Source of the DNA: Pseudohongiella acticola
Lineage (GTDB): Bacteria > Pseudomonadota > Gammaproteobacteria > Pseudomonadales > Pseudohongiellaceae
Assembly (NCBI RefSeq): GCF_001758195.1
Contig: NZ_MASR01000002.1
Span: forward strand, 1 to 64,000
Length of the DNA stretch: 64,000 nt
Direction of reading: 5' to 3'
In this document: positions 5,758 to 51,279 of the stretch, one piece after another
How positions within the stretch are numbered: the stretch's first letter is position 1
How the letters are laid out: each line of letters begins with the position of its first letter
The notes under the pieces: generated by a model
The model's database searches: none
The model's input: only the letters and a program-made list of their open reading frames with translations
Told to the model about the DNA's origin: nothing
Translations under genes and position numbers: made by a program

Positions 5758-5908
5758 TGCTTTCTCCTTCCTCCAACGGCTGATACGACTGCGTTGAAAA
5801 CAGGCATTTCACCGCCACGCGTATACAAGAACCTGACTGACGCCTAGAATATCACACCAACGATTTCAGCTACTCATTTACACATAACCATCACCCCAGG
5901 ATTTAGTA

Positions 5909-7084
5909 ATGACTTCAGCTTTGATGGCCAACTATGGTCACCCGGAACTCCAGTTTGCCCGTGGCCAGGGCGTTTATCTGTACACGGCAGACGGCGAGCG
6001 CTATGTCGATTTCACCATGGGCATCGCCGTGAACTGCCTGGGCCATTGCCATCCTCACCTTATTGCAGCGCTCAAGCGCCAGGCAGATACGCTGTGGCAC
6101 ACGTCCAACCTGTTCAGCAATGTGCCCACGGAAACACTGGCAAAGCGCCTGGTTGAGCTGACCTTTGCTGATCGTGTGTTTTTTGCCAATTCCGGCACCG
6201 AAGCGGTGGAATGTGGTTTCAAGATGATGCGTCGTTACCATTACCATCATGGACGTAAGCAACGTGTGCGTATCATCTCCCTGACCCAGTCCTTTCACGG
6301 TCGCACACTGGCGCCGGTAGCTGCCTGCCTGAATCCCTTGCATACCGAAGGGTTCCTGGTCGGTGATGCCGGTTTTGATCAGGTACCGTTTGGCGATCTC
6401 GACGCCCTGCGCGCTGCCATCAGCGACAGCACCGCCGGCATCATCCTTGAGCCGGTGCAGGGCGAAGGCGGTATACGCGCGGTGTCGGTGGAATATTTGC
6501 AGGCTGTACGTCAGATTTGTGACGAACACGGCATTTTATTGATGTTCGACGAGGTACAATCAGGTATCGGACGGACCGGTTATCTGTTTGCTCACGAAGC
6601 GCTGGGAGTGGCCCCTGACCTGCTGGCCTCGGCCAAGGGATTGGGCGGCGGTTTCCCCATTGGTGCCTGCCTGTCCAGAGAACACGTGGCTGAAGTCATG
6701 ACGGCCGGCACCCATGGCAGTACTTTTGGCGGCAATCCGCTGGCAACGTCAGTGGCAAATGCGGTACTGGACGTATTGACCGAGCCAGGCTTTCTGACCC
6801 AGGTGAACCAGCGTGCCGATCAGTTGCGGGCTGGCATAGATGCCCTCAGTGAACAGTACCCGGGCATTCTCGCCGGTCATACCGGACTCGGACTGATGGT
6901 GGGTCTGCGTTGCGCCGGCAGCAATGCTGATCTGCTGAAGGCGATGGCAACACACAAGCTGCTGGCGGTAAAAGCCGGCGGTAACTCAGTCCGGCTGCTA
7001 CCGCCGCTGAATATCAGCGCTGCAGAGGTGGACGAGTCGCTGGCATTACTGGCATCTGCGTGTGCCGACCTTGCCAGTCTGTAA
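5909..7084 (+). CDS. argD: Acetylornithine/succinyldiaminopimelate aminotransferase
   Basis: A 391-residue class-III PLP aminotransferase. It converts N-acetylglutamate semialdehyde to N-acetylornithine in arginine synthesis and probably also acts in lysine synthesis. Diagnostic segments are MGIAVNCLGHCHP, FFANSGTEAVECGFKM, ILEPVQGEGG, LLMFDEVQSGIGRTG and the PLP-lysine motif SAKGLGGGFPIG (Lys243). AGGA precedes the ATG by about 8 nt. No other arg gene is adjacent. Confidence 0.93.
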   Translation: MTSALMANYGHPELQFARGQGVYLYTADGERYVDFTMGIAVNCLGHCHPHLIAALKRQADTLWHTSNLFSNVPTETLAKRLVELTFADRVFFANSGTEAVECGFKMMRRYHYHHGRKQRVRIISLTQSFHGRTLAPVAACLNPLHTEGFLVGDAGFDQVPFGDLDALRAAISDSTAGIILEPVQGEGGIRAVSVEYLQAVRQICDEHGILLMFDEVQSGIGRTGYLFAHEALGVAPDLLASAKGLGGGFPIGACLSREHVAEVMTAGTHGSTFGGNPLATSVANAVLDVLTEPGFLTQVNQRADQLRAGIDALSEQYPGILAGHTGLGLMVGLRCAGSNADLLKAMATHKLLAVKAGGNSVRLLPPLNISAAEVDESLALLASACADLASL

Positions 7085-7177
7085 CAGAATGTCATAAGCT
7101 ATAACAATTACGTATAACACTCATAATAATAATACGCCGGATAGCCACACATCACGGTCGACTGTAGTTGGAAGATT

Positions 7178-10100
7178 ATGCTGCCCACAAAAAATGTCAC
7201 CCGGCTGGGAGAAGTCGCCCTGCGCCCTGCCGTCCCCGGCTCGTTGCAGCAGGTCGTGTCGCTTTGCACCGACCTGAGCTGGCAGGAAGATGACAAAGGC
7301 TTCTGTACACAAATTGACAGCCACAGCGACAAAACTACCTCAGTAGCGCAGCTGTTGTTCCAACGAAGACTCATTGATCTGGGCGACGCTGACAGTGTTG
7401 CCAGCGAAGACTGGCCCAGATACCTGGCCAGTGTTGGCGCACGGCAGCCCTACCGCCAGATCAAATGCCGCCTCAGTGGCGATGAGCGGAACGTTTACCT
7501 GCAGATCAGCGGCGTCCCCCAGTTTGATGACAATCAGGTGTTTCAGGGCTACGACTGTGTCGCCATCGACATGAGCCATGAACATCACAGTGAAGCCAGC
7601 CTGCTCCGCTTCCGCGCCGCCATGGACATGTCCATGGACATGATCTACCTGGTTGATCGGGACACCCTGACCTTCCTTGATGTCAATGACACCGCCGCTC
7701 GCGCCTATGGCTTCACCCGAGAAGAAGTGCTGGCCATGGGACCCTCGGAAGCGCTGGACCTTACACCAGAAGAACTGATTGAACGCTATGATCGCCTGAT
7801 TACCCAGGGCGGCAGCAGTCGTATCGAACGCCGCGTCAAACTGAAAGACGACAAACCTGGCATTATCGAAGTCTACAGCCGCGCCACCTGCCTGAATGGC
7901 CGCTGGATCATCATTGGCGTCAGCCGCGACATCTCCGACCGCAAAATGGCCGAAACGCGTGCACTGCATCTGCAACACATCTTTTCCACGCTGAGCAATA
8001 TCAACGGCGCCATCATTCGGGCAGAAACAGTTGCCACGCTGTATCAGGATATCTGCGCCGCTGCCGTCAATGAATCCCTGTTTGCCATGACCATGATTGT
8101 GACGCCTGATGCCGGTGGTGAACTCAACGGCGTTGCCATGATGGGCGATGAAACTTTCGAAGCGCAGCCGCTGCAGATCAGTGCCGACGCCGGCACGCCT
8201 CAGGGCCAGGGGCTGGTAGGCAGTGCACTGCGGGACGGCGTCGCCATGATCAGCAACGACTATATCAATGACCCGCGCTCCCTGCCCTGGCGTGACCTGC
8301 TTATAAATCAGGGGCTTAACAGTGCCGCCGCCATGCCGTTGTTCCAACGTAAACAGGTGGTCGCGGTGATGCTGTTTTACAGTCGCATCAAGGACGCCTT
8401 TGACAGTGAAACCCAGGCCGTGATGCAAAGCATGGCCGACAACATTTCATTTGCGCTGGATAATTTTGCCAGCGCAGAAGAACAGGCCCGCGCAGCCGCG
8501 TTGATTCAGGAAAGTGAAGCCCGCTTCCGCAGTCTGACCAACCTGACATCCGATTTTTACTGGGAACAGGATGCCAACCTGCGTTTTACCAAATATGAAG
8601 GCCGGGTTGTCGGCGAAGCCAACCAGCGCGCGGTGAAGACCATACTGGGCCGGCACCTGTGGGAAATGCCCGGCATAAAACCGGATTCGATGAACTGGCG
8701 GCAACTGCGCCGGCTTTTAAAAAAAGAACAGCCGTTTCGCGACTTTGAATTTTCATTCACCAATGAAGACAGCGTCCGTTACCATTTTACTCTGGCCGGC
8801 GAGCCCATCGTCGACAGCGCCGGTGCCTTTGCCGGATACCGTGGCATATCACGGGATATCACCGAGAAAAAGCGTATCGCTGACCGCATCAAACACCTCG
8901 CCACCCACGATACCCTGACTGGCCTTCCCAATCGGGTGATGTTCAGTGAATTGCTGCGCCAGTCCATCCGCACCGCCAATCGTTATAAAGATCAGCGTTT
9001 TGCCGTCATGTTTATTGACCTGGACCGATTCAAAGCTGTCAACGACACTTATGGCCACCACACCGGTGATCTGTTGCTGTCCGAGGTAGCGCAGCGGCTC
9101 CGCAAACCTCTGCGCGACAGTGACATCGTGGCACGGCTGGGCGGTGACGAGTTCGTCGTGCTGCTGCACAAGGTGTCGGACAAGCAGCAGGCCGGTCAGA
9201 TTGCCGAAAACGTGTTAAAGATGTTTAAACAACCCATCGCACTGGCTGAGCGCGAGTTCGCCGTCAGCGGCAGCATTGGCATCAGCCTGTATGGCATTGA
9301 TGCCAACGATGAAGAAAGCCTGATGAAACATGCGGATACGGCCATGTATGCGGCCAAGGAAGACGGTCGCAACAGTTACCGTATCTATTCCGCCGATCTG
9401 CATCAACATACCCAGGAACGTGCCGGTCTGGCACTGGAACTGAGGCATGCGCTTGAGCGAGGCGAGCTGGCATTGCACTATCAGGCCAAAGTGGCACTCG
9501 ACAACGATGAGGTGGTGGGTGTCGAGGCACTGCTGCGCTGGCACCACCCCGAGCGGGGCGACATTTCGCCCGTGCAGTTTATCCCCATTGCCGAAGACAA
9601 TGGTCTGATCATCCCGATTGGCGAATGGGTCATGGAAACTGCCTGTCAACAACTGGTGGCGTGGCAGGCACAGGGTCTGCCGCCGCTGGCACTGGCCGTT
9701 AATCTGTCGCCGCGCCAGTTTAACCACCCAGACCTGCACAAACACATCAGCGATGTACTGGCGCGCACGGACTTCGCCGCTAATTTGCTGGAGCTGGAGA
9801 TCACCGAAAGTCTGGTCATGCAGAATCCGGAGCGTGCCATTGAACTGATGACCCAGATCAAGCGCATGGGAGTACGATTTGCCATCGATGATTTTGGCAC
9901 TGGTTATTCTTCGCTGGGACAGCTGCGTCACTACCCCATCGATACGCTGAAAATTGACCGCGCGTTTATTCGCGACCTGGCCAGCAGCAAGGAAGACCAG
10001 GCCATCAGCAAAGCCATTATCTCCATGGGTAAAACTCTGGGTCTCACCGTTGTCGCCGAGGGCGTGGAAAACGCCCGCCAGCTGGCATTTCTACGTGACA

Positions 10101-39327: not shown

Positions 39328-40875
39328 TCAAAGACCGAGTCGCTTCAACAACCTGCTAAGGTTGCCCCGGTCCAGGCCCAGGGCTCTGGCCGCTTGTGAC
39401 TGATTGCCGTCGCACTGACGCAACGCATTAGTGACCATGTCCTTCTGAAACATTTCAGTGGCCTGCCGCAACGTTAACCCGGGCTTCGTATCAGGCGGCA
39501 CACTCGGCGGCAAGGTAATTGTTGCCTGGGAGACGCTGTCAGGCAGATCCAATACATCACAGGTAATCGTCAGCAACCGGCGCGTATCCGATATTCCTGT
39601 TTCTGAAGCGCGGGCACGCAGTGCCGCCCGGCTGATCAGATGCTCCAATTCACGCACATTGCCGGGCCAGTCGTACGCCAATAACGCGTCACGCGCTGCG
39701 CTTTGTAATCGAATGCCTCTTAACCCGAGACGACGCCGGTTCATTTCAAGAAAGTGCCCCGCCAACGTCAATACGTCACGCTGCCGGCTGCGCAGAGGCG
39801 GAACTTCTATCGGATAGACGCTGAGACGATGATAGAGGTCGGCACGAAAATGACCAGCAGCCACCTCTCTGGCAAGATCACGATTGGTTGCAGCGATAAT
39901 GCGCACGTCTACTTTATGTTGAACGTCACTGCCGACACGCTGAACATCACCATTTTGCAACGCCCGCAACAATTTAGGTTGCGTTGCCAGTGGCAGTTCA
40001 CCAACTTCATCCAGGAACAGAGTGCCTCCGTGCGCCAGTTCAAACTTTCCGGCTCTTGCCTGTGACGCGCCAGAAAATGCGCCTTGGGTATGTCCAAATA
40101 ACTCGCTTTCGACCAGGTTATCCGGCAACGCAGCGCAGTTGACATAGACCAGCGGTGACTGCGCACGTGATGAACCGGCGTGAATATGTCTGGCCACCAG
40201 TTCTTTACCAACACCCGTCTCTCCCGTGATAAGCACTGCCAGATCGGTCAATGCCACCACATCGATCTCGTGTCGCAATATCTGCATCACCTTGCTATGG
40301 CCCGTCAGTTCCAGCTGCACCTGCTCCGCCACTACAGCCTGCGTCACCAGATGTTCGCGCTCCACTCGCGCACGCAGACCACCGATCAGATTGACGATTT
40401 TAATTGTCGCTTCTGCCAGTCGCAAAAACGTGCGCAGATCATATGGATCTATTTCATCAAAAGCGCCAGGTCGCATGGCATCCAGTGTCAATAATCCCCA
40501 CGGCATATCATCAATATACAAGGATGCCCCCAGGCAGTCGTGTACATGCAGGCTGTCACTGTCCACAAGTCCATCGTAGGGGTCGGGCAATTGCGAATCC
40601 GCCATAAAGCGTACAGGCTCACGACTCAACAGAATTTTCGCCAGACGCGGGTGATCATCCACCATAAAACTCCGACCCATTGTGTCGTCACTTAACCCCT
40701 GAATCGCCAACGGTTGCAGCGTGCCTCCATGTAGCTGCAGCAATGCTGCTGCATCACAGGGAAAAACCCGGGATAAAGCCTGCAGCAGGCGTGTATACCG
40801 CTCACCAGGCGTCAGCTCACGTGACAGATCTGCCAGAATTTCCAGTACTGCGTCCGGCATGTGTCTCGTTGTCAT
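39328..40875 (-). CDS. norR: NorR-type nitric-oxide-responsive sigma-54 activator
   Basis: A 515-residue bacterial enhancer-binding protein. The N-terminal GAF domain (about 15-165) would hold the non-haem iron that senses NO in NorR. The AAA+ domain has Walker A GETGVGKE (218-225), the sigma-54 contact loop GAFSGA (265-270, Ser in place of the usual Thr), and GGTLFLDEVGELP (Walker B). The C-terminal Fis-type helix-turn-helix reads GNQSQAARALGLDRGNLSRLL. It diverges from hmp, its likely target, as in the FhpR-Fhp pair of Pseudomonas. Confidence 0.92.
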   Translation of the reverse strand: MTTRHMPDAVLEILADLSRELTPGERYTRLLQALSRVFPCDAAALLQLHGGTLQPLAIQGLSDDTMGRSFMVDDHPRLAKILLSREPVRFMADSQLPDPYDGLVDSDSLHVHDCLGASLYIDDMPWGLLTLDAMRPGAFDEIDPYDLRTFLRLAEATIKIVNLIGGLRARVEREHLVTQAVVAEQVQLELTGHSKVMQILRHEIDVVALTDLAVLITGETGVGKELVARHIHAGSSRAQSPLVYVNCAALPDNLVESELFGHTQGAFSGASQARAGKFELAHGGTLFLDEVGELPLATQPKLLRALQNGDVQRVGSDVQHKVDVRIIAATNRDLAREVAAGHFRADLYHRLSVYPIEVPPLRSRQRDVLTLAGHFLEMNRRRLGLRGIRLQSAARDALLAYDWPGNVRELEHLISRAALRARASETGISDTRRLLTITCDVLDLPDSVSQATITLPPSVPPDTKPGLTLRQATEMFQKDMVTNALRQCDGNQSQAARALGLDRGNLSRLLKRLGL

Positions 40876-40927
40876 AAATACACCATATTTGTCTTTATGA
40901 CATCATACTGAGATTTGTCATATTAAC
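40871..40927. promoter_or_regulatory. Three NorR-type GT-N7-AC boxes upstream of hmp
   Basis: GTCATAAATAC (40871-40881, overlapping the norR start codon), GTCTTTATGAC (40891-40901, within the palindrome TGTC-N5-GACA) and GTCATATTAAC (40917-40927). The known NorR consensus is GT-(N7)-AC with an AT-rich centre, usually in three copies. The boxes lie about 70-125 bp upstream of the predicted hmp start point, a normal enhancer distance. Confidence 0.75.
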
Positions 40928-40969
40928 AACACTTAATATTAACCCCTTATTAATCATATATTTAAATAA

Positions 40970-40985
40970 TGGCATAAATACTGCT
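40970..40985 (+). promoter_or_regulatory. Sigma-54 (-24/-12) promoter of hmp
   Basis: TGGCATAAATACTGCT has GG at 40971-40972 and GC at 40983-40984 with exactly 10 nt between them, the spacing required by RpoN. It predicts transcription start near 40996, giving a leader of about 80 nt before the hmp ATG. With the upstream NorR boxes it forms a complete NO-responsive control region. Confidence 0.72.
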
Positions 40986-41075
40986 ATTAACACTGCTATT
41001 GGAAATCAGTAACAGGCACTGCTAACTGAAACTGCAGACCAACGCTCAACCATCAACAACCTGAGGGGAACCACA

Positions 41076-42251
41076 ATGCTGTCACAACAATCCAAGGACA
41101 CCATCGCTGCCACGTTGCCCGCCGTCGGCGCTCACGTAAACCAGATTACAGAAGTTTTTTACCCGCTGCTGTTCCAACGTTATCCCGAGGTCAAAGCCTA
41201 TTTTAATGAAGCCCATCAGGTACAGGGTACTCAACCTCAGGCGCTGGCCAACGCCGTGGTAGCTTATGCCAGCAACCTGGAACGGCTGGAAAAACTTGGT
41301 GACGCTGTCAGCCTCATTGTGCAAAAACATGTATCGTTAAACATTCAACCAGAACATTACCCGTTGGTGGGTGAATGCCTGCTGGCGGCCATCAAAGAAG
41401 TGCTGGGCGACGCCGCATCCGAAGAGGTTCTGGCTGCCTGGGCGGAAGCCTACACCCAACTGGCCGACATTTTGACAGGCGCTGAAGAACAGGTTTATCA
41501 CAGCATTGAACAACAGCCTGGCGGCTGGCGCGGCGAACGTGAATTTGTGCTCAAACACAAGGTCCGGGAAAGCGCGATCATTACCTCTTTTTATTTTGAA
41601 CCCGCCGATGGTGCAGCCCTGCTGGCATTCAAACCCGGCCAATACATTGGTCTGGTATTGAACATAAACGGGCAAGCAGTGCGCCGCAACTACTCACTTT
41701 CTGACAGCCCAGACAACCCGCATTACCGCATCAGTGTTAAACGCGAAAACAATGGCCTGGCGTCGGCATATCTTCACGATGAACTGACAGTGGGTGATCG
41801 CGTTCGGATGACACCACCGTGTGGCGACTTTGTGCTGAACGATGCCGACCGCCCTCTGGTGCTGCTGTCCGGCGGTGTTGGCATCACGCCAACCATTGCG
41901 ATGCTGAAACCGGCCCTGGAAAGTGGCAGAGACGTGCATTTTCTGCATGGCGCACTGAACAGCGAAAGCCATGCCTTCCGCGAACTGATCGAGGAGATGG
42001 CCACGACTTACAAAAACCTGCATAACTATTACTGTTACAGCCATCCATTACCGCAGGATACAGCGCAAAACAGTGGTTTTCTCGATCGGGAACGCCTTTC
42101 GGCACTGCTGCCTGAGCACAGAGATGTTGATGTCTATTTCCTGGGGCCGAAACCATTCATGCAAGCCTGTTACAAATCGCTTAAAGAGCTTAAAATTCCG
42201 GCGGAGCGAATTCGCTATGAATTCTTCGGACCATTGGAAGCATTGAATTAA
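41076..42251 (+). CDS. hmp: Flavohaemoglobin, nitric oxide dioxygenase
   Basis: A 391-residue flavohaemoglobin oxidising NO to nitrate with O2 and NAD(P)H. The globin domain (1-140) carries the proximal histidine in NIQPEHYPLVGECLL. The FAD-binding domain has RRNYSLSDSP, and the NAD domain LLSGGVGITPTIAML and FLGPKPFMQACYKSL. Full length for the family. GGGGA precedes the ATG. Regulation by NorR and sigma-54 is supported by the upstream sites. Confidence 0.96.
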   Translation: MLSQQSKDTIAATLPAVGAHVNQITEVFYPLLFQRYPEVKAYFNEAHQVQGTQPQALANAVVAYASNLERLEKLGDAVSLIVQKHVSLNIQPEHYPLVGECLLAAIKEVLGDAASEEVLAAWAEAYTQLADILTGAEEQVYHSIEQQPGGWRGEREFVLKHKVRESAIITSFYFEPADGAALLAFKPGQYIGLVLNINGQAVRRNYSLSDSPDNPHYRISVKRENNGLASAYLHDELTVGDRVRMTPPCGDFVLNDADRPLVLLSGGVGITPTIAMLKPALESGRDVHFLHGALNSESHAFRELIEEMATTYKNLHNYYCYSHPLPQDTAQNSGFLDRERLSALLPEHRDVDVYFLGPKPFMQACYKSLKELKIPAERIRYEFFGPLEALN

Positions 42252-44072: not shown

Positions 44073-45428
44073 ATGAAAATAAGACACACTCCCGGAATGC
44101 TACATAAAACCTGCACAGGATCAGCGGCCCTCATGATGTTGATGGCCGCCGGGCTGGCAACGGAAACCCTGGCTCAGGGCTCATCCAACCACTCTTCACC
44201 GACCTACGCCGCCGATGTTGCCAGCATCATCAATGAAAACTGCGTGGTATGCCACCGCGAAGGTGGTATTGCGCCCATGCAGTTGACCAACTATGAACAG
44301 GTACGCCCATGGGCGCCATTGATCCAGGACCGGGTTGTCAATCGCAAGATGCCGCCCTATTCCTACGATCATGGCATCGGCATCCAGGATCTGCAGGGCG
44401 ACTGGCGTCTGTCTCAGGACGACATTGATACCATCGTCGCCTGGGTCAGTCAGGGCTCTCCTTCCGGTAACCTGAACGAGATACCTCCGATGCCTGATCT
44501 GCCGGATCTGGCAGAATGGAACTTCGCCCCACAATTTGGTCAGCCCGATATCGTGCTGGCATCCAACGCCATTGATGTGCCGGCCAGCGGCAATGATCTG
44601 TGGGACATCCATTTTGTGCAAAGCGGATTGACTTCAGACCGCTGCATCAAAGCCGTTCAAGTGAAGCCCCGCGGCGATGCCAAATCTGTGGTGCACCATG
44701 CAAACACCTATTTTGCTGACGTAGACGAGGACGGTAACGTTTCCCGTAGCCCGCTGACCGAGTACGCCATGGGCAAATGGGGTGAGATCATCCCCGAGGG
44801 CGTCTGCCGCACTGCCGCCGCTGGCAGGCTGGTGCAATGGGACATCCATATGTATCCCGGCGGCCTCGGTGGCGCTGCGCCAGGCACCATGATTGAGGAC
44901 AATGTCGTTGAACTGGGCATCTGGCTGCATGACGAAGATTACCAGGCTGACATCAAGCAGGATCTGTCATCGTATCAGCTGAACCAGGGAGAGCTGCTGA
45001 TTCCGCCCCACGGCAAGATCATGACGCAGGGTTTCCACACATTTGACCACCCGGTGCGAATCGACAGCTTCCAACCTCATGGCCACTTACGCATGAACGC
45101 TGCCACGCTGGAGATTTTTTATCCCGAAACCGGTCGGACAGAAGTCGTCAGTTCGATTTCCGACTGGAGCGCGACCTGGCATCACAGTCACTTGTTCGAC
45201 TCTGATGCTGCGCCGCTGGTGCCCGCCGGGGCCGTCCTTGTTATCAAGCAGTGGTATGACAATACCGCCGACAACCCCAACAACCCTGATCCCCGTCAGT
45301 GGGTTGCCTGGGGTCAGCGCACTGCCGATGAGATGACGCATGCCTGGATCGCCGTTTCTCACCTTGATGATGAAACCTATCAGGAGTTGCTGGCCGAGCG
45401 CGAAGCCGGCTCTGTGGCGGTCAATTGA
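44073..45428 (+). CDS. Cytochrome c fused to a PHM-like copper monooxygenase domain
   Basis: A 451-residue exported protein. A signal peptide (to about residue 35) is followed by a class-I cytochrome c-like domain with CVVCH at 57-61 and a possible Met ligand in KMPP (Met93). The second domain has HH at 208-209, DIHMY (His259), HGH at 336-338 and DEM (Met421). This order and spacing mirror the copper ligands of peptidylglycine and dopamine monooxygenases (HH, H, HxH, M in DEM). I infer a periplasmic haem-copper oxidoreductase in which the haem may feed electrons to copper. First of three exported proteins in one operon. The substrate is unknown. Confidence 0.75.
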   Translation: MKIRHTPGMLHKTCTGSAALMMLMAAGLATETLAQGSSNHSSPTYAADVASIINENCVVCHREGGIAPMQLTNYEQVRPWAPLIQDRVVNRKMPPYSYDHGIGIQDLQGDWRLSQDDIDTIVAWVSQGSPSGNLNEIPPMPDLPDLAEWNFAPQFGQPDIVLASNAIDVPASGNDLWDIHFVQSGLTSDRCIKAVQVKPRGDAKSVVHHANTYFADVDEDGNVSRSPLTEYAMGKWGEIIPEGVCRTAAAGRLVQWDIHMYPGGLGGAAPGTMIEDNVVELGIWLHDEDYQADIKQDLSSYQLNQGELLIPPHGKIMTQGFHTFDHPVRIDSFQPHGHLRMNAATLEIFYPETGRTEVVSSISDWSATWHHSHLFDSDAAPLVPAGAVLVIKQWYDNTADNPNNPDPRQWVAWGQRTADEMTHAWIAVSHLDDETYQELLAEREAGSVAVN

Positions 45429-45484
45429 ATCTGGGCTGACGCTACCAACAGCGAATACTAATAATAAGACTGGAGAACATGTAC

Positions 45485-46405
45485 ATGCGAGTGATGAGTT
45501 CCCTTGTGATTCGAGCGGCACTGGTGCTGCTGGTAAATGGTTTGATGATCACCAGCATCAGTGCGCAATCTGGTGACAGGTTGTTACGACCGGCGCCCGG
45601 CGCTGGCACACCGGTCATTCCATTTATGGAGGGCTGGTACGGCAACGAGGATGGATCGGTAACCCTGTCGTTCGGCTACCAAAACCGCAATCGGGAGCCG
45701 GTCCGTATCCCAGCCGGGGCCAACAATCGCATCGAACCGCAAGGCCTGGGTGACATGCAGCCAGAGTTCTTTTTGCCCGGGCGGCACCACGGTGTCTTCG
45801 CCGTCACCATCCCCGCCGACATGGACGGGACAACCGTCTGGTGGCACCTGATCTCCGAAGGTGAAGAACTCAAAGTACCCGGCGAGCGCGGCTCCACAGC
45901 CTACGAACTGGACCGTAACCCGCGCCCACAGGGAAGCGTGCAGCCACTGGTCGGTTTCAGCGAGAGCGGCCCGGTCGGCGTAGGTCCGGAAGGCATCGTC
46001 TCAGAGCAGGTCGTGGAAGCGTCGATAGATGAGCCTGTCACGTTAGAGGTCTGGACCAATGATCCGTCCAAGCACGACCCGTCGGATCCGCGTTATGCCA
46101 AACCACTGGACTCCCGGGTGTCATGGTACTTGCACCAAGGGCCTGGTGAGGTAGATTTTATCGCGCATGAGTCGATGCCATTCCTCGACACGCGGCCGGC
46201 CACACCGCTCAGCCGTAACGCGCCACCGCAGCATGCCGTGGCCGTCAAAGAAAGCGTAGGACCTGCGCGGGTGACCGCCTCGTTTTCAGAACCGGGCGAG
46301 TACCTGATTCGCGCTCGTCTCGATAACTGGGAAGCGTCCGACAGTGATGCCCTGGACCAGTGCTGCTGGAGCAATGCCTATCAACGTGTCCGTGTCATTG
46401 AATGA
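45485..46405 (+). CDS. Secreted protein associated with the cytochrome/copper operon
   Basis: A 306-residue exported protein (signal peptide MRVMSSLVIRAALVLLVNGL to ISAQ). I prefer the ATG at 45485, where GGAGA is 8 nt upstream; the ATG at 45479 is too close. Two beta-rich halves are visible: YGNEDGSVTLSFGYQNRNRE near the N-terminus and an Ig-like end (ARVTASFSEPGEYLIRARLD). DALDQCCWSNAY near the C-terminus has a vicinal Cys pair. Homologues seem to travel with the upstream gene type, but I know no function. Its stop overlaps a possible ATG of the next gene. Confidence 0.72.
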   Translation: MRVMSSLVIRAALVLLVNGLMITSISAQSGDRLLRPAPGAGTPVIPFMEGWYGNEDGSVTLSFGYQNRNREPVRIPAGANNRIEPQGLGDMQPEFFLPGRHHGVFAVTIPADMDGTTVWWHLISEGEELKVPGERGSTAYELDRNPRPQGSVQPLVGFSESGPVGVGPEGIVSEQVVEASIDEPVTLEVWTNDPSKHDPSDPRYAKPLDSRVSWYLHQGPGEVDFIAHESMPFLDTRPATPLSRNAPPQHAVAVKESVGPARVTASFSEPGEYLIRARLDNWEASDSDALDQCCWSNAYQRVRVIE

Positions 46406-46422
46406 TATGCGGGGTTTCCGCC

Positions 46423-47616
46423 ATGACCAGAAAACCACTGAGACTTTTTAAACCAGCCCTGGCGCTATTGCTGGGCATCTCGGTGTCGACCGGCGCCCTG
46501 GCTCAGGCCAACCTGGAGAGCAGCGTTGAGAGTCAGCACTCCGAACTCGCCCGCCTCTACCACGCTTTCACCGTCACTCATGCCGCCGCGCTGGATACCA
46601 TCGCCAGGGCCAACCTCGATCCCCAGTTTGCTCAAGCGCGAGCAGACATGCGTCAGCATCTGGAACAAATGCAGACCCGGGAAAACTCGCAATCGATGTC
46701 TCACGGCATGATGCACAGTTCAGGCGACAGCAATTCACACGACATGGACATGAGCATGGAAGGCCCCTACCGGGAGCTGGATGTAAAGGCGCGTGTCAAC
46801 ATGGGCCGACAGGTGCGTGCCGATCATACTGACGCGGCCGCCGCCGAGGCCTACGACAATGTTGCGTCCCTGCCCCGCCACGCCGCAATGGTGCTGGCTG
46901 CGGGCCGGCAGTTCGAAGAAGCGTTGTGGAGCCTCTGGGCCGACCCGGTCACGAGCGTTGACGACAAGGTGAAGGCAACCCAGACAGTTATCGAAGACTA
47001 TCGATCCGCCGACGAAAGGCACGCCGTCTCTGTGCAGCCCAAGCCGGTCGCGCTGTATCTCGACCACGCCTACACCGGCAGCCTGCAGAGCGCCTACCCA
47101 CGCCTCAGTGGCCTGCTCTGGTCCAATCAGTGGCTGCAACTGGCGTCTCTGGAAGCCATCATCCGTGGCCAGGTAGACCCTCAGTTCGCCGGTCGTGTCG
47201 ATGACACGCTGGAGCGCTACAACAACAAACTGGGTTCAGACAGCGGCATGAGCATGTTTCCCGCCCCCGTGGAGATGCCCACCGTACCGACGATCGCGCC
47301 GACCCTGTACACCCTGGCGCCTGAGGCCTCGATCATCGTCGACAACCTGAACATGCTGGATGCGGCCATTGCCGATATCATCGCCTACCCCGGCCTGGAT
47401 GCGAATACTCGCGAGCACGCAATCCTGGATAAAGTGGCGCAGTTTACCGACGACGACACCGCCACGGACAACATGAGCTACCTGCTATCAGCCCTGCGCG
47501 GCGGCATCTACAACCAGGGTGGCCCTGCCATTGGCGAACTCATGGGCTCCGAGCGCAACCGCTCCCGCGACGCTATGGGCATGCAGCATCATATGAGTAT
47601 GTCCGGGCCGAATTGA
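46423..47616 (+). CDS. Exported Met/His-rich protein, probable copper binder
   Basis: A 397-residue exported, mostly helical protein. Its signal peptide runs MTRKPLRLFKPALALLLGIS to ALAQ; an in-frame ATG at 46402 overlaps the previous stop and is an alternative start. Residues about 90-113 form a Met/His cluster with SMSHGMMHSS and SHDMDMSM, and the C-terminus has GMQHHMSMSG. Such clusters bind Cu(I) in periplasmic copper proteins. It follows the PHM-like gene, so copper delivery or storage for that enzyme is a reasonable inference. No known family is recognised. Confidence 0.7.
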   Translation: MTRKPLRLFKPALALLLGISVSTGALAQANLESSVESQHSELARLYHAFTVTHAAALDTIARANLDPQFAQARADMRQHLEQMQTRENSQSMSHGMMHSSGDSNSHDMDMSMEGPYRELDVKARVNMGRQVRADHTDAAAAEAYDNVASLPRHAAMVLAAGRQFEEALWSLWADPVTSVDDKVKATQTVIEDYRSADERHAVSVQPKPVALYLDHAYTGSLQSAYPRLSGLLWSNQWLQLASLEAIIRGQVDPQFAGRVDDTLERYNNKLGSDSGMSMFPAPVEMPTVPTIAPTLYTLAPEASIIVDNLNMLDAAIADIIAYPGLDANTREHAILDKVAQFTDDDTATDNMSYLLSALRGGIYNQGGPAIGELMGSERNRSRDAMGMQHHMSMSGPN

Positions 47617-47813
47617 GGAATGGGGTGTGGGCAATTAAGTCAGAGACTTATTCCCTAATTCACAATATCACGCTCAACATTAATTGAATTTAGCTCCAGC
47701 TCTTGTGTCCGGCGATTACACGATTTTTATCGAGTTTACGGGCACCAGAAGAATAGAACGTTAGTTGTCGTGAGTCCATTCTGAATATAATGAAATAACA
47801 AAGGGTGAAAGCA

Positions 47814-48992
47814 ATGAAAAAACCCTCTCTGATTTCCGTGCTCATTGGCTGCGCTTTACTCTCTTTCACGAATTTGACTTCGGCTCAGGAACAGCGGCCA
47901 TTCAGGTTTTTCTTCAATGCATCAGGCCTAAACCCTTCCGCCAGCGGTGTAGCATCGGTGGACCTGGAGTTAAAACAACTGCTAGGTTCAGTTGAGTTCA
48001 TGTCCATGGAACTGGAACGTGACCGGAACAACCGATACGAAGCGGAAGAATTGATACCGCGGGAAAGCGAGTACTTCATGATTTCGGGCTATTGGGAAGC
48101 AGCTGATTCTGACTATCGGCTATATCTGCCAATCCAATTGGTCCATAACTCCACTTATCCAGGCCCTGACATCAGAGAATTGACCAAGACTGAGAGATTT
48201 GTAAACGCCAATGATGCTTTTTTTGTCTCATTGCATATGAGAGCGAGAGATGCATTCGAGGCTGGAAATACTCCACTCGCCTTGCTATTTCTGGAAAAAC
48301 TTTACGTTCATGAGCTGGTTGAGTTAAGCAATGGAAACAGTGCAGCGTTGTCTTATTTCCATACATATGAAGATTCGATAACTCGCCCGGAAAACTTGCC
48401 GTACACCCTCACAGTCTGGGATAACATCTACAACAGTTCGAAAGAAAACATCGATCTGGTAATGACATATGCCAATTTCCTGGCAAATCTGGGCAACAAA
48501 AACATCGACGGTTTACCTCTATTTGGATCCAACCTAGGGAATTATAGAAAAAACCGCCTTCACAGCCTTGCTGAACAGAATCTCAATGGATTGTTTACGA
48601 ACTATGTCAGCATTGCATACCAGCTATTCGATTCACGACAATTTACTGACTGTGTATCCATGAGCTCAAAGCTACTTGAAGAACTAACAAGAGCAGATGA
48701 CTATCATGCCACAGTAAAAGCAAATGATGACTGGCAGACTAGTTTGACGAGATACCTTCTAATCGGATCAAGCTGCCTGCATCGCGAGTTCGAACTGTCA
48801 CGCGGGATCGTTGATGGCTCGATGATGTTAGATGATCGGTTTCGAAACTTTATACAACAAGATCCAGATACGCGGAAATTTGCAGAGTTGTATGTGTCTA
48901 TCGTCGAAGCGTTCAGCCTGGACTATCTGGATGGCGTCTCAGATACTGCTAAGGACGTGAAGAAATATTACATGGCTTACACAGGAACCTGA
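47814..48992 (+). CDS. Exported protein of unknown function
   Basis: A 392-residue protein with a signal peptide (KKPSLISVLIGCALLSFTNL to TSAQ). AAGGG precedes the ATG at 47814; a GTG at 47805 is less likely. The C-terminal two-thirds look helical and repeat-like (TPR-like pattern, for example NTPLALLFLEKLYVHELVEL). Base composition is clearly more AT-rich than upstream genes, hinting at transfer. No family recognised. It may be cotranscribed with the 80-residue membrane protein one base after it. Confidence 0.65.
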   Translation: MKKPSLISVLIGCALLSFTNLTSAQEQRPFRFFFNASGLNPSASGVASVDLELKQLLGSVEFMSMELERDRNNRYEAEELIPRESEYFMISGYWEAADSDYRLYLPIQLVHNSTYPGPDIRELTKTERFVNANDAFFVSLHMRARDAFEAGNTPLALLFLEKLYVHELVELSNGNSAALSYFHTYEDSITRPENLPYTLTVWDNIYNSSKENIDLVMTYANFLANLGNKNIDGLPLFGSNLGNYRKNRLHSLAEQNLNGLFTNYVSIAYQLFDSRQFTDCVSMSSKLLEELTRADDYHATVKANDDWQTSLTRYLLIGSSCLHREFELSRGIVDGSMMLDDRFRNFIQQDPDTRKFAELYVSIVEAFSLDYLDGVSDTAKDVKKYYMAYTGT

Positions 48993-50749: not shown

Positions 50750-50836
50750 TGGTGCCCGGGACCGGAATCGAACCGGTACGGAGTTTCCCCCGAGGGATTT
50801 TAAGTCCCTTGCGTCTACCAATTTCGCCACCCGGGC
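50750..50836 (-). tRNA. tRNA-Leu (anticodon TAA)
   Basis: 87 nt on the minus strand including encoded CCA. Acceptor arms GCCCGGG and CCCGGGC pair fully, the discriminator is A, the T-arm contains GGTTCGATTCC, and a long class-II variable arm is present. The anticodon loop reads CTTAAAA, giving anticodon TAA, which reads UUA/UUG. Its upstream leader consists of the 125-bp repeat array. Confidence 0.96.
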
Positions 50837-51235
50837 ATGGGAGGCTGTCTATCTAGTTAGGTGCCAGCTCAGAGGCTGCCCCTTGCGGCCGTTCCCGGAC
50901 GTCCTGTCCTCCACGGCATTCGTGCATCCTGCACTTCATCTACCAATTTCGCCACCCGGGCATGGGAGGCTGTCTATCTAGTTAGGTGCCAGCTCAGAGG
51001 CTGCCCCTTGCGGCCGTTCCCGGACGTCCTGTCCTCCACGGCATTCGTGCATCCTGCACTTCATCTACCAATTTCGCCACCCGGGCATGGGAGGCTGTCT
51101 ATCTAGTTAGGTGCCAGCTCAGACGCTGCCCCTTGCGGCCGTTCCCGGACGTCCTGTCCTCCACGGCATTCGTGCATCCTGCACTTCATCTACCAATTTC
51201 GCCACCCGGGCATGGGAGGCTGTCTATCTAGTTGG
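50814..51235 (-). repeat. 125-bp tandem repeats carrying the tRNA-Leu 5' end
   Basis: Units begin (plus-strand side) at 50814, 50939, 51064 and 51189; the last is partial. Each contains the first 23 nt or so of tRNA-Leu (GCCCGGGTGGCGAAATTGG and TAGA) joined to about 100 nt of spacer. The unit at 50814 is the real tRNA start. Spacers include the dyads GTGCA-GGA-TGCAC and GGAC-AGGAC-GTCC. Copies are virtually identical (one G/C difference seen near 51124). All lie between the tRNA and its predicted promoter, so they should be transcribed in the precursor. Confidence 0.95.
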
Positions 51236-51279
51236 GTGTCGACTCGCCAATTCAGCACCAGCAGGATGGGTGCCTTTTT

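Follow-up and report, generated by a model that had tools for sequence, protein, structure and literature searches.

Animals use the two-copper fold of the peptidylglycine and dopamine monooxygenases, PHM and DBH, for noradrenaline and amidated hormones; the two coppers of these animal enzymes, about 11 Å apart in PHM, are fed electrons by ascorbate. Here we describe a three-gene locus, P0001 to P0003, from the 3.6-Mb genome of Pseudohongiella acticola, a little-studied gammaproteobacterium of a free-living marine genus, lying within positions 1 to 64,000 of contig NZ_MASR01000002.1 (this whole 64,000-nucleotide stretch is referred to as the window). Its first gene encodes a c-type cytochrome domain fused to a domain predicted to adopt the PHM/DBH fold, and we consider it probable that the trio constitutes a periplasmic, haem-wired type-2 dicopper hydroxylase with two partner proteins. 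The fold, ligand register, conservation, haem motif, fusion and co-occurrence that bear on this assignment are computed results.

Excerpts of PMC6123673 and PMC4846438 give the copper ligands as His107, His108, His172, His242, His244 and Met314 in PHM, and as His262, His263, His333, His412, His414 and Met487 in DBH; the roles that we ascribe to the CuH and CuM sites of these enzymes are taken from the same two sources.

Predicted fold, haem and copper ligands of P0001

P0001 and P0002 are separated by 50 bp, and P0002 and P0003 overlap by 4 bp (Table 1). All three proteins have Sec signal peptide-like N-termini, as judged by eye, and would be exported to the periplasm. An earlier reading of these letters, made without database searches (the sequence-only reading), had picked out three open reading frames and a set of haem- and copper-type motifs; the frames lie where it placed them, and each residue that it named is present (C57-V-V-C60-H61, H208-H209, D257-I-H259-M-Y, H336-G-H338 and D419-E-M421). 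Of the copies in named records, the nearest four are 86–89% identical; one comes from Pseudohongiella sp. O18 and three from Gammaproteobacteria without a genus name. Scans for promoters and terminators yielded no more than shuffled sequence, and plasmid carriage of the locus was considered and rejected because no match was found.

The cytochrome c and haem-binding matches that Pfam gives for P0001 are weak and all below cut-off; that to Cytochrome_CBB3 scores 19.3 bits against a cut-off of 27, and scans of NCBIfam gave no match over cut-off. Residues 45–127 are nevertheless a c-type cytochrome by their CxxCH motif, probable distal Met and small helical domain, AlphaFold2 having modelled helices between residues 45 and 126. 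The model of the whole protein, computed from 46 aligned sequences, has a predicted local distance difference test (pLDDT) score of 84 and a predicted template modelling (pTM) score of 0.81. When it was compared with the Protein Data Bank (PDB) by Foldseek, ranks 1–31 were all PHM or DBH (E 3e-13 to 6e-10), headed by human DBH (4ZEL, E 3e-13), with a TM-score over the target of 0.53–0.64 for PHM; the first match of another kind had E 1.5e-6 and TM-scores of 0.14/0.24. P0001 is thus predicted to have the two-domain beta-sandwich fold of PHM and DBH, as the sequence-only reading had supposed, at a structural-alignment identity of 11–14% (11–12% for PHM).

Sequence comparison reached the animal enzymes by way of a bridging protein. 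Searches of PDB sequences with P0001, with a family profile (alignment A1, 62 of 101 non-redundant family hits; a second alignment, A2, comprised 45 sequences plus P0001) and with sets of paralogues did not reach PHM; L147 alone did. This 414-amino-acid cytochrome c–PHM fusion, from another family of Pseudomonadota, was located by surveying 398 genomes with PF03712, in which two genomes, one of them the window's own, exceeded the cut-off. L147 lies over both relevant Pfam cut-offs, with 31.7 bits for Cu2_monooxygen (cut-off 30) and 52.9 bits for Cu2_monoox_C (cut-off 23), and phmmer matched it to rat PHM with E 2.8e-7 and to DBH with E 5.7e-5. The phmmer alignment with rat PHM places VHH, QVHY, HxH and DEMC in register. 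Residues 18–422 of P0001 in turn align to L147 at 23% identity (single-comparison E 3e-22), and the CxxCH, HH208-209, H259, H336/H338 and DEM Met421 of P0001 all coincide with L147 motifs. By this two-step alignment, the six putative copper ligands of P0001 are in register with those of rat PHM. L147 and P0001 are alike in domain order, haem motif and copper motifs; they differ in that L147 passes both Pfam cut-offs, and their identity is only 23%.

The family supports the same residues. From 263 hits, 228 were unique and 216 near full length, 12 having been dropped as too short. Conservation across these 216 relatives is 98–100% for the haem residues (C57, C60, H61 and M93), and 100%, 97%, 97% and 96% for the candidate ligands H208, H209, H259 and M421, respectively. 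The HxH pair, H336 and H338, is intact in 172 of the 216 (80%), and 171 of those 172 also keep Met421. None of the remaining P0001 histidines beyond residue 61 exceeds 77%. Judged from the alignment, the motif residues are more than chance occurrences, being the best-kept His and Met of the PHM-like domain; conservation in homologues was a test that the sequence-only reading had itself proposed, and its ligands come through it, the HxH pair less completely than the rest.

Table 1. Coordinates in the window of the three genes and of the domains, motifs and predicted ligands within them
Feature	Position	Strand	Description or basis
P0001	44073..45428	+	451 amino acids; cytochrome c–PHM/DBH-fold (predicted) fusion; signal peptide by eye
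Cytochrome c domain (P0001 residues 45-127)	44205..44453	+	Weak Pfam Cytochrome_CBB3 match, conserved haem residues
CVVCH haem motif	44241-44255	+	C57, C60, H61 conserved
Met93, probable distal haem ligand	44349-44351	+	Conserved in relatives
H208-H209, CuH ligands (predicted)	44694..44699	+	Conservation; register with PHM VHH through L147
H259, third CuH ligand (predicted)	44847..44849	+	Conservation; register with PHM QVHY His through L147
H336-G-H338, CuM ligands (predicted)	45078..45086	+	HxH kept in 172/216 relatives
M421 of DEM motif, CuM ligand (predicted)	45333..45335	+	Conservation; register with PHM DEMC through L147
P0002	45479..46405	+	308 amino acids; signal peptide by eye; C-terminal QCCWSN motif
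P0003	46402..47616	+	404 amino acids; all-alpha (model); signal peptide by eye
Met/His-rich loop of P0003, residues 99-119	46696..46758	+	Sequence
Met/His-rich C-terminal tail of P0003, residues 392-402	47575..47607	+	Sequence; similar tail in Met-rich members aligned

The partner proteins and their distribution

To define the distribution of the trio we called a P0001 match close at E <1e-130 and a P0002 match close at E <1e-40, both thresholds being chosen after a gap had been seen (weakest kept 2.5e-136 and 9.0e-43; best left out 2.2e-45 and 5.9e-15, respectively), and we took any match up to E 1e-3 as presence of P0003. Across 56 genomes, the window's own and its relatives, close P0001, close P0002 and P0003 fall in the identical 16, and P0003 is found in none of the 40 others; beyond the 16, another 10 genomes match P0001 and another 9 match P0002, more weakly. 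These genomes are related, and their counts are not independent events. Co-occurrence of the three genes, for which the sequence-only reading had suggested a survey, is borne out, and in 11 of the 16 genomes the three are adjacent on one strand; in G024 P0003 lies about 1.6 kb off on the opposite strand, and P0003 and close P0001 are on different contigs in G017, G019, G028 and G033. In an order-wide set of 293 genomes, P0003 (profile A4) was found in six, the same six with close P0001, and in a phylum-wide set of 398, a P0001 match at E 1e-10 was found in only three, the window's own included.

P0002 probably consists of candidate beta-sandwich domains. It matches no Pfam family, DOMON included; CCW is present in 45 of 47 non-redundant aligned members, with QCCW near the C-terminus in 43–45, and no His is kept in at least 85% of the 47. 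A cupredoxin identity was rejected on the same two grounds, the missing Pfam match and the absence of a His at that level. This pattern, QCCW kept and no His at that level, lowers the likelihood of a metal site in P0002 and raises that of a structural or docking function. At 59 of 76 places, the HxH-type gene has a P0002 homologue on its own strand at a distance of no more than 1.5 kb.

P0003 was modelled by AlphaFold as all-helical (pLDDT 69, pTM 0.73), with a low-confidence stretch at residues 97–119, where the Met/His loop lies. A fold search against the PDB found no similar fold (best E 1.3), and no curated family was matched over cut-off, known copper chaperone families included. The family comprises 39 hits, four loci being counted twice under two identifiers: 24 are Met-rich, and 15 have SHYH instead, the two subtypes sharing a core LRGGI(Y/F)N.GGP..G near the C-terminus. 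The sequence-only reading had proposed a Met/His-cluster protein that could supply copper; the cluster stands in P0003 and in 24 of the 39 hits but is not universal, given the 15 of SHYH type, and in L140, itself counted among the 24, the loop is greatly shortened and the Met tail is missing. A PHM-family gene lies in the stretch examined for 20 of the 24 Met-rich copies, the nearest always being of HxH type, with none there for the other four. Among the 15 SHYH copies, 12 are within 72 bp of a paralogue lacking the CuM histidines, and three (L134–L136) are beside an HxH gene. This nearest-enzyme pattern indicates that the P0003 subtype largely tracks enzyme type. That P0003 loads copper is a reasonable guess.

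Paralogues, the CuM-less clade and gene neighbourhoods

In 43 of the 216 members HxH is replaced by Arg or Lys followed by Met and, mostly, Asn. With the ligand columns left out of the alignment, FastTree places all 43 in one clade of exactly 43 tips (support 0.996), and the HxH character changes twice in all, one odd sequence accounting for the second change; the tree thus points to a single loss of HxH in this CuM-less clade. The other four ligands are retained by 30 of the 43, and 13 have lost at least one, losses that look like those expected after constraint is relaxed. Most CuM-less members are 560–620 amino acids long with an N-terminal extension, which was AhpC-TSA/TlpA-like in the two proteins scanned, L097 and L057. 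A CuM-less paralogue is present at 36 of the 76 HxH places (L038–L113 plus the window), always on the opposite strand; at L137–L139, outside the 76, it shares the strand of the trio (the L137 copy at 5815–7497). L142 also carries a longer CuM-less paralogue of this type, in which TlpA-like, cytochrome c and PHM-like parts are joined and the HxH position is mostly R/K-M-N. TlpA–cytochrome c–PHM-like paralogues in general (about 560–700 amino acids) show homology to most of P0001 in their cytochrome and PHM-like domains, and differ in their extra thioredoxin-like (AhpC-TSA) N-terminal domain and in including one clade without the CuM histidines.

The window's own genome has 16 stretches that match P0001, some of which belong in pairs to a single gene, and no CuM-less copy was seen among its paralogues L002–L008, L114–L120 and L148. 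One of these, L117 (1489–3276), keeps HxH and the Met, with only one of the three CuH histidines left in the alignment. At L120 (contig C1, approximately 1392994–1397666), three stand-alone PHM-type genes of 318–342 amino acids flank a TlpA–cytochrome c gene (290 amino acids); they carry HH, H, HMH and EEM motifs, and all three exceed the PF03712 cut-off. That haem and dicopper domains are adjacent here even as separate genes supports the haem as the partner of the dicopper domain. The 2.8-Mb relative G019 has 27 matches to P0001, a very large expansion of cytochrome–PHM genes.

Neighbourhoods were compared at 77 places, 76 loci plus the window stretch, with one representative per gene cluster scanned against Pfam. 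No neighbour gene is universal. The commonest are MFS transporters (20 places), cupins (20), TonB receptors (18), NHL-repeat proteins (16) and TPR proteins with NB-ARC (16), followed by beta-lactamase-family proteins (9), GMC oxidoreductases (8), gluconate-dehydrogenase-3-type proteins (8), SapC (7), DUF6445 (7), pyrroloquinoline quinone (PQQ) dehydrogenases with cytochrome (6) and tryptophan halogenases (6). At most of the loci L042–L049, the homologues of P0001 and P0002 have a tryptophan halogenase, SapC, DUF6445 and a TonB receptor as neighbours.

Upstream of the trio in the window (39328–42251), a GAF and sigma-54 regulator gene is divergent from a flavohaemoglobin gene, a pair that we take to be a likely nitric oxide response system of NorR type. 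It is probably unrelated to the trio: a link to nitric oxide stress was rejected, since neither gene has a homologue in the 6–8 kb compared upstream of the four nearest trios, L038–L041; a partial flavohaemoglobin match (43%) occurs in L043. After the trio comes a gene for 395 amino acids (47805–48992), which is 99% identical in L038/L146 beside their trio and was not found in the other loci of the same comparison. Farther on, a 125-bp tandem repeat (50814–51238; 3.4 copies, 99% match) has its first copy overlapping the 5′ end of a minus-strand tRNA-Leu gene (50750–50836), and each unit seems to contain a piece of the tRNA.

Proposed activity, alternatives and the animal enzymes

In the activity that we favour, the built-in c-type haem of P0001 would take the place of ascorbate. 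The respiratory chain or a periplasmic cytochrome would supply this haem with electrons, which would pass to CuH (H208, H209 and H259) and on to CuM (H336, H338 and M421), where O2 would be activated and an aliphatic C–H of a small non-peptide substrate hydroxylated. P0002 would act as a structural or docking partner, and P0003 as an accessory protein, most simply in copper loading or storage by means of its mobile Met/His loop and tail. Copper binding, the direction of electron flow, hydroxylation and these partner roles are what we infer from the computed results. The alcohol-oxidising GMC and PQQ neighbours would fit hydroxylation followed by oxidation of the alcohol product.

Several observations weigh against this proposal. 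P0001 itself matches neither PF01082 (Cu2_monooxygen) nor PF03712 (Cu2_monoox_C); in its whole genome the N-terminal model PF01082 matches nothing even at E 10, and PF03712 matches paralogues only. The root-mean-square deviation of the model from PHM/DBH in Foldseek is 4.3–7.2 Å, so the relative placing of the two sub-domains of P0001 is insecure and may differ from that in the animal enzymes. The CuM-less clade and L117 show that the fold can persist without the full ligand set. At 17 of the 76 HxH places there is no P0002 within 1.5 kb: seven of these are at most 1.2 kb from a contig end (L056, L083, L093, L096, L104, L106 and L107), and ten lie farther from one (L050, L068, L071, L081, L089, L098, L101, L103, L108 and L112), L050 holding a 74-amino-acid P0002 fragment and L089 a homologue at 2.1 kb; some HxH copies seem to lack P0002. 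Finally, GMC and PQQ genes are found at only eight and six of the 77 places, and neither adjoins the window's own trio.

The CuM-less clade bears equally on whether the fold is catalytic. A protein that handles copper or relays electrons (a copper reductase, store or sensor) and is no oxygenase could explain why the fold can live without its oxygen site, why HxH is gone from 43 of 216 members, 30 of which still have the other four ligands, why the Met/His protein P0003 adjoins, and why TonB receptor homologues are found at 18 of the 77 places. A pure relay would not, however, need retention as strict as that of HxH in 172 of 216 members and of the Met in 171 of those 172, and the high copy numbers (16 stretches in the own genome, 27 in G019) suggest substrate diversity over metal handling; we think such a relay unlikely. 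We give even less weight to a periplasmic oxygenase that builds or tailors a secreted metabolite instead of serving catabolism, for which the tryptophan halogenase, SapC and DUF6445 genes beside P0001 and P0002 homologues speak at 6–7 of the 77 places: these genes are absent from the window stretch examined and from most of the 77 places, and GMC and PQQ dehydrogenases with transporters elsewhere point rather to breakdown.

Least credible of all, and in our judgement very improbable, is a true bacterial PHM that hydroxylates C-terminal glycines for peptide amidation, with an NHL-propeller neighbour as the lyase. The PHM fold would suit it, as would the NHL-repeat homologues at 16 of the 77 places, the one scanned matching the PAL chain 3fvz with E 1.9e-12; its match to TRIM71 is the better one, though, and the eight window proteins that were scanned, in the trio and around it, include no NHL protein. 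The peptide carboxylate of PHM is presumably held by Arg240, Asn316 and Tyr318, an assignment that a search of PMC6123673 did not find. At the corresponding positions (two before HxH, and two and four after the Met), P0001 has Gln, His and Trp, and among the 172 HxH members the Arg occurs in none, the Asn in one and the Tyr in one. The stand-alone L120 copies, outside the 172, do carry the Arg of rat PHM, two residues ahead of HxH. With the presumed carboxylate residues replaced, peptide amidation is unlikely for P0001.

If the haem-wired hydroxylase is the correct description, the trio points to a bacterial oxidation system without earlier description. Among the literature titles and abstract openings searched, which cover the field only in part, there was no bacterial PHM-type or cytochrome-fused enzyme, and the statement of the sequence-only reading that it knew of no described pathway for the trio agrees with that portion of the literature. 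New here is a predicted PHM/DBH-type dicopper protein that contains its own haem, together with two partners specific to the lineage and a sister clade of CuM-less proteins. A natural haem-wired version would allow electrons to be fed one by one and observed, which bears on electron transfer between the coppers, and evolution has supplied a control in the clade without CuM histidines. The trio may also account for some of the oxidising capacity of marine bacteria with poorly annotated oxygenases; the excerpt of PMC8371827 notes that, in the sister family HTCC2089, the substrate is doubtful for many annotated oxygenases, and it calls gene annotation challenging in both families.

A broader scheme, which is possible but which we hold to be doubtful, would make the Pseudohongiella family a bearer of modular haem-wired dicopper hydroxylases for periplasmic oxidation of dissolved organics. 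An HxH enzyme would work with P0002, a CuM-less TlpA–cytochrome–PHM protein would be its redox or regulatory partner, and P0003 would be a new copper-loading class, Met-rich by HxH enzymes and of SHYH type mostly by CuM-less ones.

Set against the animal enzymes, human DBH (4ZEL) is the best Foldseek match of P0001. According to the excerpt of PMC4846438, DBH has an Ig-like DOMON domain next to its catalytic core, and the four domains named there include no cytochrome c, unlike the trio. The DOMON domain loosely recalls the partner P0002, which differs in being encoded by a separate gene and in having no DOMON match in Pfam. Rat PHM (1PHM/1OPM) resembles P0001 in predicted fold and, through L147, in the register of its six ligands; at 11–12% identity to it, P0001 has no Pfam match of its own to the family, neither the presumed peptide-carboxylate residues nor a PAL domain, and instead a fused cytochrome c and the two partners P0002 and P0003.

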